Positions 16,649 to 23,420 of a DNA stretch of 64,000 bases are shown here, in pieces. A program made the position numbers and the translations under genes. The DNA comes from Geoalkalibacter subterraneus (GTDB lineage: Bacteria > Desulfobacterota > Desulfuromonadia > Desulfuromonadales > Geoalkalibacteraceae), in assembly GCF_000827125.1 (NCBI RefSeq), contig NZ_CP010311.1, positions 2,294,001-2,358,000 of the forward strand, read 5' to 3'. The notes below the pieces were generated by a model. That model was given only the letters and a program-made list of their open reading frames with translations, had not been told where the DNA came from and ran no database searches. Each line of letters starts with the position of its first letter. The stretch's first letter is position 1.

Positions 16649-16879
16649 GATCCCCGCCTTCGTTATGGGGGTCGAAACAATATCGTTTACCCCTCTGAAT
16701 ATCCGAGTCACTATACGTCAGGGGTCACAGACCGGTCAAATTCTTTCCCCCGGTCCGCCCCGGCTTTACACACCCCATCACTATGCTAAAGTTCTAAAGT
16801 AATTTCGCTGCTTATACGCACTTTATCGGAAATTCGTCGGTTGCCCCGCGGGGATCGACCCAGCAATTATGGAAAGAGC

Positions 16880-18451
16880 ATGACCACCGAGTCCGTACAC
16901 AAAGCCCTGATGCGGACAAGCACCTATCCGGAGACCACCTCTGAGGTGGCCTATATAGAGACTCACGTCTCCAAACTCTATTTAACCGATCAGTTCGTCT
17001 ACAAACTCAAAAAACCTGTCAATTTCAAATTTCTTGACTTTACGACCTTGGACCGCCGCCGGTTTTACTGTGAGGAAGAGGTTCGTCTCAATCGCCGGTT
17101 TGCCCCTGACACGTACCTGGGGGTGATGGAAATTCGGGAGGACCACGGCCGCATCTCCATAGGCGGCCCGGGCACAACAATCGAATACGCCGTCAGAATG
17201 GTCCGTCTGCCTTTCGACCGCATGCTCGACCATCTCATCGACCGGCAAGCTAGCGAACTCCCCGGTCAAATAGATCGCCTGGCACCTTTACTTGCGCGCC
17301 TGGAGGATGAATCGCCTGTCTGCCAGCGCAACGGGGGCCGAAATAATTTTGACGCGGTGTGCGGCAACTGGCAGGAAAATTTCGAACAGATGACGCCTTT
17401 TATCGGCCAGACTCTGTCAGCCGAAGCCGAAGGTATCTGCCGTCGCTATGTCGAGAAATTCCTGCAGGAACACGAAGAACTTCTCCTGCACCGTGAAGAT
17501 GAGGGGTTTGTCCGCGAGGGCCATGGCGATCTGCATGCCGAGCACATCTGCCTGACCGACACGATCCGGATTTATGACTGTATCGAATTCAATCGACGTT
17601 TTCGAGTGGCCGATGTCGCCGCTGACCTGGCCTTCCTGCTGATGGATCTGGAATATCGTCAACGCCGCGACCTTTCAACCCGTCTCTTGTCCGGCTACCG
17701 CGCTCATGCCAGGCCCGATCCGGATTTACCCGGACTTCTCGAATTTTACAAAATCTATCGCGCTTATGTGCGCGGCAAAGTTCAGACATTTCTTCAGGCG
17801 GACGCACAGGCCCAGGATGCAACCCGTCGTGAAGCACGCCTTTGTGCCTGCCGCTATTTCAACCTGGCCCTGGGCTACCTGCTCCCATCCTCTCTGATCC
17901 TGGTCGGCGGATTGATGGGAACAGGCAAGTCAACGCTTGCGCTGGAACTTTCTCGTGCCAGTGATGCAACCCTGCTTCGCTCCGACGTGGTACGCAAGCA
18001 TCTCGCCGGCCTGCACGAATCGACTCCGGCGCCCGCAGAGTTCGCACAGGGCATCTACACCCCGGAGTGGAATCGCCGGGTCTATAACGAAATGCTGCGA
18101 CAGACCGAAGCGCTGTTGAGCGAGGGCAGGAGCGTCATCGTGGACGCCAGCTTCTCCAGAAAACAGGATCGCGTCCAGTTCCAGGAGCTGGCCCGCCGGA
18201 TGCAGAAGCCGTCCCTGTTTATTCATCTCGCCTGCGACACCGAAACCCTGGGACGCCGATTGCAGCAACGCCGGCAAGATCCCCATGAAGTTTCGGACGG
18301 CCGGCAGGAATTGCTGGCGGATCAGATGGCACACTTTCAACAACCCGGGGAAGAAGAATGCATCCTTTCCCTTGATGGCGCGCACGACCCGTGTCAGAAT
18401 GCCCAGAGCGTTTTATGCGAAATCCTTTCCCGAAAGGACCCTACGGCATGA
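16880..18451 (+). CDS. Bifunctional APH-like kinase / AAA P-loop kinase fusion
   Basis: A 523-aa cytoplasmic fusion. Residues about 1-330 resemble the aminoglycoside phosphotransferase (APH/choline kinase) fold, with the catalytic HGDLHAEHICL loop near residue 215 and a following DCIEFN metal site. Residues about 340-520 form a zeta-toxin/gluconate-kinase-like P-loop domain with Walker A GGLMGTGKST and a conserved NVIVDASF-like strand (SVIVDASFSRKQDR). The architecture is widespread and annotated by homology only; the substrate is unknown. Antibiotic resistance should not be inferred. The ATG at 16880 follows GGAAAGAGC. It overlaps the next gene by 4 nt, so it is translationally coupled to the symporter cluster. 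Confidence 0.85.
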   Translation: MTTESVHKALMRTSTYPETTSEVAYIETHVSKLYLTDQFVYKLKKPVNFKFLDFTTLDRRRFYCEEEVRLNRRFAPDTYLGVMEIREDHGRISIGGPGTTIEYAVRMVRLPFDRMLDHLIDRQASELPGQIDRLAPLLARLEDESPVCQRNGGRNNFDAVCGNWQENFEQMTPFIGQTLSAEAEGICRRYVEKFLQEHEELLLHREDEGFVREGHGDLHAEHICLTDTIRIYDCIEFNRRFRVADVAADLAFLLMDLEYRQRRDLSTRLLSGYRAHARPDPDLPGLLEFYKIYRAYVRGKVQTFLQADAQAQDATRREARLCACRYFNLALGYLLPSSLILVGGLMGTGKSTLALELSRASDATLLRSDVVRKHLAGLHESTPAPAEFAQGIYTPEWNRRVYNEMLRQTEALLSEGRSVIVDASFSRKQDRVQFQELARRMQKPSLFIHLACDTETLGRRLQQRRQDPHEVSDGRQELLADQMAHFQQPGEEECILSLDGAHDPCQNAQSVLCEILSRKDPTA

Positions 18452-18669
18452 AAGATCCCAAACCTCCACAAATTCGCGAAGCCTGGGTGCTTTTTTTCGT
18501 TATGGGAATGATTATGATTAATTATCCGTTCATCCATATTTTCAATAAAGACATCACCATTTTCGGGATCCCCCTGCTGGTTTTTTATTTTCTGGTCGGG
18601 TGGCCGCTCTCCATACTCGTCGTGGCGATCTTTGCCCATGTCCTCGAAAACGCCCCTCTAGACCAGTAG
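18448..18669 (+). CDS. Small two-helix membrane protein preceding the symporter
   Basis: A 73-aa protein with two predicted transmembrane segments (VLFFVMGMIMINYPFIHIF and GIPLLVFYFLVGWPLSILVV), connected by a short loop with NKDITIFG. Small proteins of this kind (DUF3311/YhdT type) often precede sodium/solute symporter genes and may be accessory subunits. Its ATG overlaps the upstream stop by 4 nt and its own stop is 6 nt before the symporter-phosphatase ATG. Together they look like a single translational unit. Confidence 0.75.
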   Translation: MKDPKPPQIREAWVLFFVMGMIMINYPFIHIFNKDITIFGIPLLVFYFLVGWPLSILVVAIFAHVLENAPLDQ

Positions 18670-18675
18670 CGCCGT

Positions 18676-21600
18676 ATGATTCCGATTCAGACCGTCGCCC
18701 TTATTACGCTGACCTACTTCGCGCTGCTTTTCTTCGTGGCGTATTATGCCGACAAACGGAGGCAGGCCGGGCGCAGCATCATTTCCAATTCACACATCTA
18801 CTCGCTCTCCCTGGCCGTCTACGTGACCACGTGGACCTTTTACGGCAGTGTCGGCCGTGCAGCCACCTCGGGACTCGATTTTCTGCCCGTCTACCTGGGC
18901 CCGACCCTCATAGCGTTTACCTGGTGGTTTCTGCTGCGCAAGATGGTACGTGTCAGCAAGGAGCAGAATATCGTTAGCATTGCCGACTTTATCTCCAGCC
19001 GTTACGGTAAATCATCGATTCTCGGTGCGATCGTTACCCTGTTTGCCGTAGTAGGGATCATGCCCTACATCGCGCTGCAGCTTAAAGCGGTGGCGCGCAC
19101 TTTCGAGATCCTGACAACCCCCGCTGACGGAACTCCGGTGGAGGGCGCCCTGCTGGCGACCCTCCCCCCGTACATTGATACGGCCTTTATCGTTGCAGTG
19201 GTCCTGGCACTGTTCGGCGTACTGTTCGGAGCCAGGCGCCTTGACGCCGCTGAGCGGCACGAAGGTCTGGTCGCGGCAATCGCGCTTGAATCCCTGGTTA
19301 AAATCATTGCCTTCATGGCGGTCGGTATTTTCGTCACCTATGGGCTGTTCGACGGGTTCGGGGACATCTTCACACGCTTTGCCGCAACCTTCCCGGATCG
19401 CCAGTATCTCCTGCAGCTCGGCACCGATCAGGTGCCCTACGCCAAGTGGTTTACGGTCACGTTCATCTCCATGATGGCGGTCATGTTCCTGCCCCGCCAG
19501 TTTCACATCATGGTCATTGAAAACTCGGATGAAAATCATATCCGTAAGGCCATGTGGCGTTTTCCGCTCTACATGTTCATGATCAACCTGTTCGTCATTC
19601 CCATTGCCCTTGGAGGGCTTCTCCTGACCGGAGGCGATACTTCCGCAGCAGATTATTTTGTTCTATTCATTCCCCATGAAGCAGGGCAAACCTGGTTGGC
19701 CATGCTGATTTTTCTGGGCGGATTCTCCGGTGCGGCCGGCATGGTGATGGTCAGTTCCGTGGCGCTGGCAACGATGATTCTCAACCACCTGGTCATGCCC
19801 ATCATCATCCGCCTGCACATTCATGCCGCCGATCTTTCCGGCTTTCTGGTCAATGTCAAGCGACTGGCCATTGTCGCCGTCATTTTCCAGGGCTACCTGT
19901 ACTACAAGGTCATCGGCGACTCACTGGCGCTGGTCAACATCGGATTGATCTCCTTTGTCGCCGCGACCCAATTTGCACCTGCAGTCATTGGCGGTCTTTA
20001 CTGGAAGCGGGGCAATGTCAAGGGAGCAACTGCCGGGATTCTTCTTGGCTTCTGTGTTTGGTTTTACACCCTGCTGGTTCCCTCCTTCGTACGGTCCGGC
20101 TGGCTGAAGACCGATATCATGGAAAAAGGTCTTTTTGATCTGGCCATCCTTCGTCCCACCGAACTTTTCGGCCTCAGCGGCTTTGATGCCCTGACCCATT
20201 CCCTCTTCTGGAGCCTGTTCTTCAACCTGAGTGCTTACCTCGTTCTCTCCCTGTTCTGCCGCCGCCATTCCATCGAGCAGGAGCAGGCAGAGAAATTCGT
20301 CGACGCATACGGCTATAAGGATAAAGAGCAGGAACGCCAACGCATCAGCAAGGCTCCGACGGTCATGGAATTTGTCGACCTGATGGCCAAATTTATCGGA
20401 GAAAAGCAGGCCCATTCAGCGATATCAGAGTATCTCGGCAATAGCGAAATAGACGAACGGGGCAGTCTTTCCGAATACGACCTGCCACACTTGAAGCGTT
20501 TCACGGAACGAACCCTTGCCGGTTCAGTCGGCGCGGCGCCCGCACGCATTATTATCGACAACTACCTGTCTGCACGCGGCAGCAAAATGGAGGATGTTTT
20601 TGACATTTTCGGCTCTGTTACTCTGAGCCGCACCACCAGCCGCGAACAGCTCGGCGTCCTTTATGAAGCAGCCCGGATCGTCGCCAGCGGTCGCAACCTC
20701 GACGACATTCTTGAAGATATTCTCGACCTGTTGACCCAGCAGTTCAAATTCGACCTCTGCGTCATCCGCATTATTGACGAAGACAGCAACACCCTCGTGG
20801 TGCGCTGTCAGAAAGGGATGACCTCACAACATCTGGGAGAATCCGAACGTGACATTTCCCGCGAGACCTACATTGGTGAAGCTTTTCTGACCAACTCGGT
20901 CATCAAGGTTAACGATACCGATTTTCTTGACAAACCCCAATCCGCCCAGATTATCCATCGCGAGGGGATCAAATCCTTCGCCCACGCGCCCATTACCATC
21001 GAGGGCCAGCCGATAGGGGTTCTCTCCGCCTTCTCCCGCTCGGTCAAAGGCATCTTTACCGATGAATTCATTGAACTTTTCCGAAGCCTTGCAGGCCAGA
21101 TCGGCATCGCCTGGCGAAATGCCATGCAGACCAAGGAACTGATCGAAGCACGCGGGCGCGAGCGCGAGATGGAGATTGCGAAAAATATACAGATGAGTCT
21201 GCTGCCCACCCATGTTCCCAAAATCGAAGGGATCACGCTGGCCGGCATGTGCGTGCCGGCGCGGCAGGTCGGTGGCGATTATTATGATTTCCTGGTGCGC
21301 GGGGAAAATGGCCTGGATATCGTCATCGCCGATGTCTCGGGGCACAACGTCGGCGCGGCACTGCTTATGGCAGAAACCCGGGCATTTATTCAGGCCCGCG
21401 CCGACGGCCTCGGCACCCCTGCCGAAATCCTCGATTCACTCAACCGTTTCTTTTATGAAGATCTGACCCGCACCGAATTGTTCATCACCATGTTCTACCT
21501 GCATTATGATGCCGCGGATCGCAAGATTCTGTATGCCAATGCCGGGCATAATCCTCCCCTGCTCTGGCGTTCGGAAAGCAACACCTGCGAGTGGCTTGAT

Positions 21601-21888
21601 GCGGAAGGGTTGATCCTGGGCGTCAAACCCTCGGTTGAATTTATCGAAATCAGAGACCAGTTGCATCCTGGCGATATGGTTTTACTCTATACGGACGGCA
21701 TCACCGAAGCGGAAAACGACCGGGGGGAATTTTTCGGTCGTGAGCGACTCTGCGGTCTGCTCAATGAAAACTCCGACGATGATCCGAAAAAGGTCCTCAA
21801 CATGCTGCTTGACCAGGTGCGACTTTTTACCGGTGTTCAACATTTTACTGACGACGTAACCATGGCAATCATGAAAATACAAAAATGA
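18676..21888 (+). CDS. Sodium/solute symporter-GAF-PP2C (SpoIIE) phosphatase fusion
   Basis: A 1070-aa integral membrane protein with three parts. Residues about 1-560 form a sodium/solute symporter (SSS/PutP-like) domain with about 13 membrane helices. A GAF sensor domain lies at about 656-815 (LYEAARIVASGRNLDDILEDIL...). A SpoIIE/RsbU-type PP2C serine phosphatase domain covers about 829-1070. Metal-binding acidic motifs are intact: GGDYYDF at about 866, ADVSGHNVGAAL, YTDGITEAEN and the late TDDVTMAIM. Such phosphatases usually dephosphorylate a STAS antagonist, and a STAS gene and a kinase gene follow directly. Whether the symporter part transports or only senses is unknown. The ribosome-binding site is weak, consistent with coupling to the upstream gene. 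Confidence 0.92.
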   Translation: MIPIQTVALITLTYFALLFFVAYYADKRRQAGRSIISNSHIYSLSLAVYVTTWTFYGSVGRAATSGLDFLPVYLGPTLIAFTWWFLLRKMVRVSKEQNIVSIADFISSRYGKSSILGAIVTLFAVVGIMPYIALQLKAVARTFEILTTPADGTPVEGALLATLPPYIDTAFIVAVVLALFGVLFGARRLDAAERHEGLVAAIALESLVKIIAFMAVGIFVTYGLFDGFGDIFTRFAATFPDRQYLLQLGTDQVPYAKWFTVTFISMMAVMFLPRQFHIMVIENSDENHIRKAMWRFPLYMFMINLFVIPIALGGLLLTGGDTSAADYFVLFIPHEAGQTWLAMLIFLGGFSGAAGMVMVSSVALATMILNHLVMPIIIRLHIHAADLSGFLVNVKRLAIVAVIFQGYLYYKVIGDSLALVNIGLISFVAATQFAPAVIGGLYWKRGNVKGATAGILLGFCVWFYTLLVPSFVRSGWLKTDIMEKGLFDLAILRPTELFGLSGFDALTHSLFWSLFFNLSAYLVLSLFCRRHSIEQEQAEKFVDAYGYKDKEQERQRISKAPTVMEFVDLMAKFIGEKQAHSAISEYLGNSEIDERGSLSEYDLPHLKRFTERTLAGSVGAAPARIIIDNYLSARGSKMEDVFDIFGSVTLSRTTSREQLGVLYEAARIVASGRNLDDILEDILDLLTQQFKFDLCVIRIIDEDSNTLVVRCQKGMTSQHLGESERDISRETYIGEAFLTNSVIKVNDTDFLDKPQSAQIIHREGIKSFAHAPITIEGQPIGVLSAFSRSVKGIFTDEFIELFRSLAGQIGIAWRNAMQTKELIEARGREREMEIAKNIQMSLLPTHVPKIEGITLAGMCVPARQVGGDYYDFLVRGENGLDIVIADVSGHNVGAALLMAETRAFIQARADGLGTPAEILDSLNRFFYEDLTRTELFITMFYLHYDAADRKILYANAGHNPPLLWRSESNTCEWLDAEGLILGVKPSVEFIEIRDQLHPGDMVLLYTDGITEAENDRGEFFGRERLCGLLNENSDDDPKKVLNMLLDQVRLFTGVQHFTDDVTMAIMKIQK

Positions 21889-21965
21889 TTTTTAAATCAA
21901 AAGGGTCGTGGCGCCCTCGACAGGGTTATGATATTGTTGGGATTGAGCGAAATTAACTTGGATTC

Positions 21966-23420
21966 CTATTCAATGACATGATGAATAAGTAAAGGAGATG
22001 CAACATGGTTTTGAAAATCGAGGAAAAAGATGATGTGGTCCTCATGCTTGTCAAGGAAGAGCGTCTTGATGCCCATAACAGCGGCGAGCTTAAAAATCAG
22101 ATGCTGAGCCTTTTTGAAGAAGGCAAGAACCACATTGTAATCGATCTGCAGGATGTGCGCTTCATTGACTCGTCGGGACTTGGCGCCCTTGTTTCCGGTT
22201 TTAAAAACGCCAGCGCCCGCAATGGCAATTTGAAACTGTGTGGTCTGCAGCCGCAGGTCAAATCCATGTTCGAACTGACCCGCCTGCATCGCGTTTTTGA
22301 AATCTTCTCGGGTGTTGACGAAGCTCTGGCGAGTTTCTAACGGTCTTTCGGGGGCCCTATGAGAGACGAACAGATCGAGGTGGACATCAAAGTCCCCAAC
22401 CAGACCCGATACCTGAGCCTCATCGGGAAAATCGGCGAGGACATTGCCCGAACACTCAAGAAGTACAAGGGAGATCGGGAGGAGCTTGCCTATCACATCA
22501 ATCTGGTGTTGACCGAATCCATGACCAACGCCATCCGGCATGCCCATGAAGGCGACCCAAGCAAAGAAGTCCACATCACCATCAGCATCCTGGACAACAT
22601 TCTGTCCATAAAGGTGTACGATCAGGGACAGGGTTTCGACATCAGCACGATTCCGACGCCAAAGTTTCGCTGTCTCGAAGAACACGGGCGCGGCGTGTTC
22701 ATTATTCACACCCTGATGGACAGCGTAACCTACCGTAAATACAACGGCGGACATGTGCTTGAAATGGTCAAGGCACTGGGGGGTAATTTCTTTATCCCGC
22801 AAACGATGGATCAGACAAACCAGTTCGGCATGTGACGCCACCCGCTGGTTGCTGCCGAAATCACCTTTGTAGGCAACAAACGAGACCCGCGCTCTTCTGA
22901 CGGCGTCTAAATCAAGCGACGAGTCTCCCACAAAGAGCATCTCATGGGCCTGGCGGTCAAGACGACGGCCGACCTCATGCAGTACATCCGGCCAGGGCTT
23001 AGGGTACGCGACATCTTTCCTCGTAACCACCGTAGAAAAATACTGCCGCACACCGAAATGGCTCAGCAGATCGAAGGCACTCAGCCCGCGGTTGGTGGCT
23101 AATGCCAGCGAAAAATCGACAGCCAATTCCTCCAGCGCCTCGGCGAGACCGGGTTCCATCGTCAGATATGGAATAAATTGCCTGTAATCCAAGGTGGCGG
23201 CGTAAGCCAAAGCCTCCCCTGCGTGATCCGCCCCCAGCAACTCCTTAAGAACCTGATCGCTTGAAGCGGTATGGCAAAGGGTGCTTTTACTCTGGTCGTC
23301 AGCAGTGATCGGAGCCACCCCGAAATGCTCAAGAATCGTATTGTAGTAGGCAAGGTTGGCCTGTTTGCTTTCAAACAGAACGCCATCACAGTCAAAAACG
23401 ATTGTCTGTAGCTCGGTCAT
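21966..23420 (-). CDS. HAD-family hydrolase with frame running antisense into the rsb-like genes
   Basis: The first 195-210 residues (about 23420-22795) are a HAD superfamily phosphatase: FDCDGVLFESKQAN is motif I, LALATNRG is motif II, DVAYPKPWPDVLHEV supplies motif III lysine, and MLFVGDSSLDLDAVRRA is motif IV. After YKGDFGSNQRVASHAELVCLIHRL the natural end would be expected, but the frame has no stop until 21966. It runs codon-aligned antisense through the kinase gene and the STAS gene, and residues past about 210 show no HAD features. In another frame a TAA occurs at once after HRF-A-G, so a 1-nt shift may have removed the stop. The ATG at 23420 overlaps the lgt stop by 1 nt. Confidence 0.6.
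   Translation of the reverse strand: MTELQTIVFDCDGVLFESKQANLAYYNTILEHFGVAPITADDQSKSTLCHTASSDQVLKELLGADHAGEALAYAATLDYRQFIPYLTMEPGLAEALEELAVDFSLALATNRGLSAFDLLSHFGVRQYFSTVVTRKDVAYPKPWPDVLHEVGRRLDRQAHEMLFVGDSSLDLDAVRRARVSFVAYKGDFGSNQRVASHAELVCLIHRLRDKEITPQCLDHFKHMSAVVFTVGYAVHQGVNNEHAAPVFFETAKLWRRNRADVETLSLIVHLYGQNVVQDADGDVDFFAWVAFMGMPDGVGHGFGQHQIDVIGKLLPISLVLLECSGNVLADFPDEAQVSGLVGDFDVHLDLFVSHRAPERPLETRQSFVNTREDFKNAMQAGQFEHGFDLRLQTTQFQIAIAGAGVFKTGNKGAKSRRVNEAHILQIDYNVVLAFFKKAQHLIFKLAAVMGIKTLFLDKHEDHIIFFLDFQNHVASPLLIHHVIE
22005..22340 (+). CDS. STAS-domain anti-sigma factor antagonist
   Basis: A 111-aa single STAS domain. The loop VRFIDSSGLGALVSGFKNA contains the phosphorylatable serine of SpoIIAA/RsbV-type antagonists (DSSGLG at about residues 55-60). 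The expected role is to bind the HATPase kinase when unphosphorylated and to be reset by the PP2C phosphatase encoded upstream. AAAGGAGATGCAAC is an ideal ribosome-binding site. It lies 116 nt after the phosphatase gene and 18 nt before the kinase gene. The final target (sigma factor or other output) is not encoded in the window. Confidence 0.93.
   Translation: MVLKIEEKDDVVLMLVKEERLDAHNSGELKNQMLSLFEEGKNHIVIDLQDVRFIDSSGLGALVSGFKNASARNGNLKLCGLQPQVKSMFELTRLHRVFEIFSGVDEALASF
22359..22835 (+). CDS. RsbW/SpoIIAB-type HATPase anti-sigma serine kinase
   Basis: A 158-aa GHKL ATPase of the HATPase_c_2 type. The N-box is ESMTNAIRHAHEG at about residues 53-65, the G1 box is DQGQGFD and the G2 box is HGRGVFIIHTLMD. 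This is the architecture of RsbW/SpoIIAB kinases that phosphorylate a STAS antagonist and hold a sigma factor or other partner. It starts 18 nt after the STAS gene, completing a phosphatase-antagonist-kinase order. The 3' end overlaps the convergent HAD gene frame on the other strand. Confidence 0.92.
   Translation: MRDEQIEVDIKVPNQTRYLSLIGKIGEDIARTLKKYKGDREELAYHINLVLTESMTNAIRHAHEGDPSKEVHITISILDNILSIKVYDQGQGFDISTIPTPKFRCLEEHGRGVFIIHTLMDSVTYRKYNGGHVLEMVKALGGNFFIPQTMDQTNQFGM

Follow-up and report, generated by a model that had tools for sequence, protein, structure and literature searches.

A cluster of four plus-strand genes in Geoalkalibacter subterraneus combines two known kinds of signaling system, namely, an SLC5-STAC transceptor sensor and a partner switch. 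The cluster lies at positions 18448-22835 of the window analyzed here, that is, the whole stretch of 64,000 nucleotides from contig NZ_CP010311.1 (positions 2,294,001 to 2,358,000 of the forward strand, assembly GCF_000827125.1), and encodes a small membrane protein, a transporter-type sensor fused to a PP2C phosphatase, a STAS antagonist, and an RsbW-type serine kinase. In the reading that we consider moderately probable, the cluster would be a small-carboxylate transceptor that controls the partner switch by dephosphorylating the STAS protein. The first-pass annotation, made from the sequence alone, had reported these four genes in a row, and the open reading frames (ORFs) were found where it placed them. 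The genes and the parts of the fusion are as follows:

18448-18669, plus strand: small membrane protein gene, 73 amino acids (aa) (ORF list)
18676-21888, plus strand: SLC5-STAC-GAF-PP2C fusion gene ("transceptor phosphatase"), 1070 aa (ORF list, Pfam, PDB profile match, structure model)
18676-20265, plus strand: SLC5 (SSF) transporter-type domain, residues 1-530 (Pfam, PDB 10ed_A match, structure comparison)
19300-19302, plus strand: K209 codon, aligned with CbrA K196 (alignment)
20362-20577, plus strand: STAC domain, four predicted helices, residues 563-634 (PDB match, model, shared sequence stretch)
20692-21114, plus strand: GAF domain, residues 673-813 (Pfam; PDB 2qyb, E 2.6e-34)
21061-21201, plus strand: long predicted helix joining GAF and PP2C, residues 796-842 (structure model)
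21208-21879, plus strand: PP2C/SpoIIE phosphatase domain, residues 845-1068 (Pfam, structure comparison)
22005-22340, plus strand: STAS antagonist gene, 111 aa (ORF list, Pfam)
22359-22835, plus strand: RsbW-type serine kinase gene (HATPase_c_2), 158 aa (ORF list, Pfam)

In the 1070-aa fusion, Pfam found SSF (E 7e-7), GAF (residues 673-813), and SpoIIE/PP2C (residues 878-1068, E 2e-50) and no others, so that no DHp/HisKA or HATPase output domain was recognized. The previously proposed fusion of symporter-type, GAF, and PP2C domains is borne out by this search. For the N-terminal part, the top match in PDB was 10ed_A, a 606-residue chain named "histidine kinase", which aligned with residues 7-634 (E 1.3e-72). 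Because the residues numbered Y51, S53, W55, A56, F71, Y75, K196, F248, and F406 in this alignment fit those in the available passages of a preprint on CbrA (PMC13022988), 10ed_A was taken for the cryo-electron microscopy structure of CbrA SLC5-STAC from that preprint. The structure model of the fusion has a mean predicted local distance difference test score (pLDDT) of 78, and its SLC5 domain gave Z values of ~30 to CHT1 and SGLT1; entry 10ed was not among the best 50 matches listed by Foldseek and VIA, from which we draw no conclusion. The model places four helices within residues 563-634 (pLDDT 60-84 there), and a stretch around TERxLAGxxGAAxAR is common to the fusion and to STAC histidine kinases. 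On these features, residues ~555-634 are assigned to a STAC domain, by which the sensor is related to the transceptors CbrA, CrbS, and RpuS. The STAC domain itself was reportedly described by Korycinski in 2015. Residues 664-832 were clearly matched by PDB 2qyb, the isolated GAF domain of a "Membrane protein, putative" with no function stated, which we take to come from a Geobacter relative. The model fell below pLDDT 50 over much of the GAF domain and over residues 781-826, and thus also in the first part, to residue 826, of the helix at 796-842. The PP2C domain resembles SiaA, RssB, and Rv1364c by PDB profile and structure comparison, with a fold close to that of SiaA.

The catalytic residues of all three partner-switch proteins are intact. 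Each of the four PP2C metal aspartates, D868, D886, D1007, and D1060, is kept without exception in the 78 proteins counted (69 canonical and nine orphan fusions, a distinction explained below; five fusions of unknown context were excluded from this count and from that of K209). A loss of catalytic aspartates in most homologues, which had been named as an observation that would speak against the proposed module, was accordingly not seen. Both metal motifs pointed out earlier, GGDYYDF and TDDVTM, are present; in the latter, the DD is conserved, but the T is not. The 111-aa protein matched Pfam STAS (3e-23) and resembles TM1442 and SpoIIAA, and the 158-aa protein matched HATPase_c_2 (7.5e-23) and is closest to RsbW and anti-sigma F. 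The DSSGLG serine loop of the STAS protein and the N, G1, and G2 boxes of the kinase, also described previously, are conserved in relatives. Ser57 of the STAS protein (codon at 22173-22175), presumably equivalent to SpoIIAA Ser58, is likely to be the phospho-acceptor. Altogether, the RsbU-RsbV-RsbW-like anatomy claimed for the cluster stands.

The gene neighborhood is conserved as well. From the fetched loci, which comprised the best matches plus 20 regions picked from the host's class and are not a random sample, 83 distinct fusion ORFs were taken, 73 of them with at least 1300 bp downstream. The STAS and kinase genes are adjacent on the same strand in 64 of these 73, and the small gene was also detected in 63. 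The neighborhood survey called for by the first-pass annotation therefore found conserved synteny, not the absence of it that had been named as refuting, and chance adjacency is ruled out by the same count. The other nine of the 73 fusions lack the small, STAS, and kinase genes and are termed orphans here, as opposed to the canonical fusions. Orphan paralogues without these genes include L049, L119, and L069. Downstream of L049 and L119, two orphans related to each other, lie genes for TRAP-type transporters (DctP and DctM by Pfam in L119; L049 reads alike). Within the host's order, outside one family (f17, treated below), the fusion was matched at E 1e-130 or better in 118 of 122 genomes and more weakly in the other four; some of these matches are fragments, and not each was checked for length. 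The kinase was found in 132 of the 136 genomes of the order. The cluster layout recurs across a group of anaerobes, with Desulfuromonas, Desulfuromusa, Geoalkalibacter, and Geobacter among the names in their record titles. The nine fusions with no STAS or kinase gene nearby would suit an alternative in which the phosphatase substrate of the fusion is not the neighboring STAS but another protein and the adjacency reflects nothing but co-expression; the synteny in 64 of 73 cases and the presence of a single STAS protein in the genome make this improbable.

The same kind of sensor carries different outputs in different lineages. The host's phylum was sampled evenly with 395 genomes, the two best candidates of each being scored, and 77 matched the fusion at E 1e-120. 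The 17 matches inside the class reach residue 1068 or beyond, whereas the 60 outside the class stop by residue 837. Among the stronger of the out-of-class matches, ten loci in nine genomes were chosen. All ten encode HisKA and HATPase_c, preceded by GAF in nine cases (L187-L194, L196), and a small gene was detectable upstream in six of them. These nine SLC5-STAC-GAF histidine kinases share about 44-53% identity with the fusion up to residue 819-837, the GAF domain included, but continue after the helix with HisKA and HATPase_c instead of PP2C. Homology between the fusion and its histidine-kinase relatives ends near residue 836, within the helix 796-842 and just before the phosphatase. In quick trees of the SLC5-STAC part, which included every fourth or fifth canonical fusion, all PP2C fusions used fall on one side of a well-supported branch (Shimodaira-Hasegawa approximate likelihood ratio test support of 100 and 98), and therefore a single exchange suffices. 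Thus, the output domain was probably exchanged once, in either direction, on an SLC5-STAC-GAF sensor. In the midpoint-rooted tree without distant permeases, the PP2C fusions stand next to the GAF histidine kinases, among the kinases. In the tree with E. coli ActP and MctP, by contrast, the root is attracted to the long branches of these two, and it is the kinases that are nested within the PP2C fusions. The two rootings thus disagree on the direction of the exchange. In the accessible part of a study of RsbU, coiled-coil linkers are proposed to let sensors swap between phosphatases, kinases, and cyclases (PMC12143880), and an exchange at the helix fits this proposal. STAC has also been described, in the text available, between SLC5 and signaling domains such as histidine kinases and GGDEF (PMC5715377). 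A protein encoded on an Azoarcus plasmid (L141:5001-8189) joins the same kind of SLC5-STAC sensor to GGDEF and EAL.

The first-pass annotation had suggested solute or ion flux, or binding, as the input, under a sodium/solute symporter label. K209 of the fusion aligns with CbrA K196 at the Na2-site position (by alignment only, Na2 being the one sodium site looked at). According to the passages available from the preprint, K196 fills the Na2 site, and CbrA transports histidine independently of sodium (PMC13022988). Lysine is present at K209 in 69 of 69 canonical and nine of nine orphan fusions, as well as in this column of all 15 STAC histidine-kinase/EAL proteins aligned. Because K209 sits where K196 fills the Na2 site in CbrA, the "sodium" label appears doubtful, and a sodium or ion-flux input is not supported, given the lysine in 78 of 78 fusions; the transporter-type input domain as such holds, on the Pfam SSF match and the SLC5-STAC match. 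In genome G099, a divergent fusion (L137) is cut by the contig end and has a gap at the K209 column, and a divergent STAS-kinase pair lies on another contig (L136).

The putative ligand pocket was examined at eight positions taken from the available part of the CbrA preprint (PMC13022988). The canonical consensus at these positions is Y49, T51, W53, T54, F69, Y73, S265, and F427. Among 14 STAC histidine-kinase/EAL proteins, four match this consensus at all eight positions and seven at seven of them; a further protein, L138, which was excluded from the 14, also matches at eight of eight (eight of the 24 histidine-kinase loci L095-L118 were used in the pocket and K209 alignments). CbrA, the ligand of which is histidine, matches at five of eight in a reading by hand, differing at T51 (S), T54 (A), and S265 (F). 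The protein of strain NGR234 taken for RpuS differs at two of eight positions; the counts are one and two for two further hybrid kinases, both encoded on plasmids and CrbS-like in make-up. RpuS is a pyruvate sensor and CrbS an acetate sensor, and the NGR234 locus, beside mctP, fits the description in the part of PMC9100948 available. For two of the closest kinases, genes encoding an ScfR short-chain acyl-CoA regulator domain were found nearby. The orphan fusions deviate from the consensus more than expected (16 of 72 residues compared with a mean of 5.6, with 0.8% of random sets as high). From the pocket agreement and deviation, the ScfR and TRAP neighbors, and the RpuS-mctP locus, our best guess is that canonical fusions bind a small carboxylate and that some orphans bind other ligands.

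Under the proposed mechanism, a small carboxylate (acetate or similar) would bind the SLC5 pocket, with the SLC5 domain serving as the sensor and possibly carrying out proton-coupled transport as well, while the 73-aa protein would pack beside it as CbrX does beside CbrA. The resulting shape change would be relayed by the docked STAC bundle, and next by the GAF domain, to the long helix that precedes PP2C; this helix would pair and activate the phosphatase, activation being the sign of the response assumed here. The neighboring kinase would phosphorylate STAS at Ser57, the PP2C domain would take the phosphate off, and the unphosphorylated STAS protein would then hold the kinase, so that the client of the kinase is freed. 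The sensor is the one found in SLC5-STAC-GAF histidine kinases, with a phosphatase replacing the kinase.

Several results weigh against this reading. The pocket agreement of the histidine kinases is better than that at random conserved positions, but not significantly so (0.16 of random sets are as low). A link to acetate was sought through TIGR03458, which was matched, always below its cut-off, in 122 of the order's 136 genomes; since it is also matched in 13 of the 14 f17 genomes, which lack the sensor (two weakly), it gives no separation and was rejected. The STAC region alone found no match in PDB. The profile of 34 small proteins did not match CbrX in PDB, in a copy that was not checked for the presence of CbrX. 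E. coli ActP, which is not a STAC protein, also has K in the K209 column, and MctP has M, both in alignments too distant to trust. The genome encodes three SpoIIE phosphatases, the fusion and two proteins of 397 aa (L002) and 271 aa (L003) with no recognized N-terminal Pfam domain, and the STAS protein may thus have other masters among the latter two. Finally, no sigma factor of the SigB/F/G type was found over the cut-off in the genome, so that the classic client is absent.

This last result bears directly on the client. The target sigma factor had been stated to be missing from the window, and the genome-wide search extends this statement for the SigB/F/G type. The SigB/F/G model picked up four sigma-70-type genes, none of them of SigB/F/G type: RpoD, an RpoS-like sigma (341.9 bits against TIGR02394, below its cut-off of 378.7), FliA, and RpoH. 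In a classical RsbU-RsbV-RsbW arrangement, the kinase would be an anti-sigma factor with the RpoS-like sigma or FliA as its client; this is compatible with the kinase being nearest to RsbW and anti-sigma F and with the sigma factors present, but given that the cluster has no sigma gene as a neighbor and that none of the SigB/F/G type passes the cut-off, we regard it as rather unlikely. SiaABCD and HsbRA are Gram-negative switches with non-sigma clients. A similar role for the STAS protein or the kinase, in the control of a cyclase, transporter, or anti-sigma adaptor, is a serious possibility, although we rate it somewhat below even: it agrees with the missing SigB-type sigma and the SiaA-like PP2C fold, but the cluster contains no candidate client gene (the surrounding ORFs were listed, and not all of them were scanned). 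As for RsbW-type kinases, the genome has a single clear one; another HATPase_c_2 match, in a 633-aa frame, is just over the cut-off at 28.7 bits, and 15 weaker ones fall below it.

The family f17 shows what remains when the sensor is missing. Its 14 genomes give no strong match to the fusion (E 1.1e-33 at best), and the kinase is present in 13. In the loci read for seven of the 14 genomes (L129-L135), the STAS and kinase genes were found in all seven with intact motifs, the AAA gene was recognized in three, and neither the small gene nor the fusion gene was seen in any; by eye, the unscanned flanking ORFs resemble those of the window, with HAD-like and Lgt-like genes on the opposite strand. 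In a tree of the joined STAS and kinase proteins, f17 forms one group. A second group is made up of the class members that are not in the order, and these have the full cluster; loss of the sensor in f17 is therefore the simpler reading. Among other SpoIIE phosphatases in the seven f17 genomes searched, relatives of the 271-aa protein of the host occur in all seven and of the 397-aa protein in five. As f17 retains the pair and these phosphatases without the sensor, STAS and kinase seem to work there without membrane input, perhaps served by the other phosphatases. This observation also speaks against the view that transport is the main role of the system and that phosphatase, STAS, and kinase regulate uptake by SLC5, since the two switch proteins have work to do where there is no transporter. 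The conserved K209, the CbrA-like pocket, and the histidine transport reported for CbrA (PMC13022988, in part) would suit such a role; nevertheless, response-regulator activation by Pseudomonas fluorescens CbrA/B is described, in the text available, as independent of SLC5 transport (PMC5715377), and we hold transport as the main role to be quite unlikely.

Beyond the four genes listed previously, a fifth gene had been overlooked, as had the STAC domain and the kinship with SLC5-STAC histidine kinases:

16841-18451, plus strand: AAA_33/APH-like kinase gene, 536 aa (ORF list, Pfam)

This gene ends 4 bp inside the 73-aa gene and is therefore probably the first of the operon. Where canonical loci had 2500 bp or more of upstream sequence, an AAA_33/APH-like gene was found there in 23 of 48, and the exact 4-bp overlap recurs in 17 of the 36 canonical loci with both genes, that of the window included. 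No plus-strand terminator-like site was found between the cluster genes in a scan that gave 12 such sites compared with 6.4 expected by shuffling; a promoter scan was uninformative (four sites compared with 4.1 expected). The 73-aa protein has two hydrophobic regions and matched no Pfam family; its likeness to CbrX lies in position and topology and was not seen in the sequence search. An origin of the fusion gene in a frameshift or joining artefact is ruled out by the single open frame in most relatives. At locus L020 (genome G105), the fusion gene is broken by one TAG stop in the sequence as read.

Among known systems, CbrXA of Pseudomonas (SLC5-STAC-PAS-histidine kinase plus the small peptide CbrX) is alike in the SLC5 and STAC parts, which align end to end, in the small membrane protein gene just upstream of the sensor, and in the lysine at the Na2-site position. 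It differs in its output, PAS-DHp-CA with a response regulator instead of GAF-PP2C with STAS and kinase, and CbrX and the 73-aa protein are not recognizably homologous. The SLC5-STAC hybrid histidine kinases CrbS (acetate) and RpuS (pyruvate) share the sensor, but their output is a phosphorelay. Conversely, RsbU-RsbV-RsbW and SpoIIE-SpoIIAA-SpoIIAB share PP2C, STAS, and serine kinase with intact motifs, and the present cluster differs from them by its transporter-type sensor and by a genome with no SigB/F/G sigma. Among the literature matches listed, from a search mostly outside subscription journals, no paper on this cluster was found. The nearest one describes, in the passage available, Actinobacteria proteins with SSS, GAF, PP2C_SIG, and HATPase, which have SSS, GAF, and PP2C in one protein as here but were found by requiring HATPase in the same protein; the passage gives neither gene context nor STAC (PMC7918813).

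A broader picture, which we put forward tentatively and consider doubtful as a whole, is that of a nutrient hub in the host's class, in which one STAS-kinase pair would be the common target of several transceptor phosphatases with separate ligand pockets and of two more PP2C phosphatases. The client of the pair would be the RpoS-like sigma or another non-SigB protein, and the hub would derive from the kinase/phosphatase exchange at the sensor-output helix of an SLC5-STAC-GAF sensor. The cluster and its histidine-kinase relatives offer a natural example of the output-domain exchange proposed in the accessible part of the RsbU study (PMC12143880), with one sensor and helix and either a kinase or a phosphatase behind. 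As its output would amount to the simple dephosphorylation of a small protein, the cluster would offer an assay of SLC5-STAC signaling, a question left open in the available text of the CbrA preprint (PMC13022988). For the organism itself, the arrangement would give partner switching a direct nutrient input via a transporter fold.

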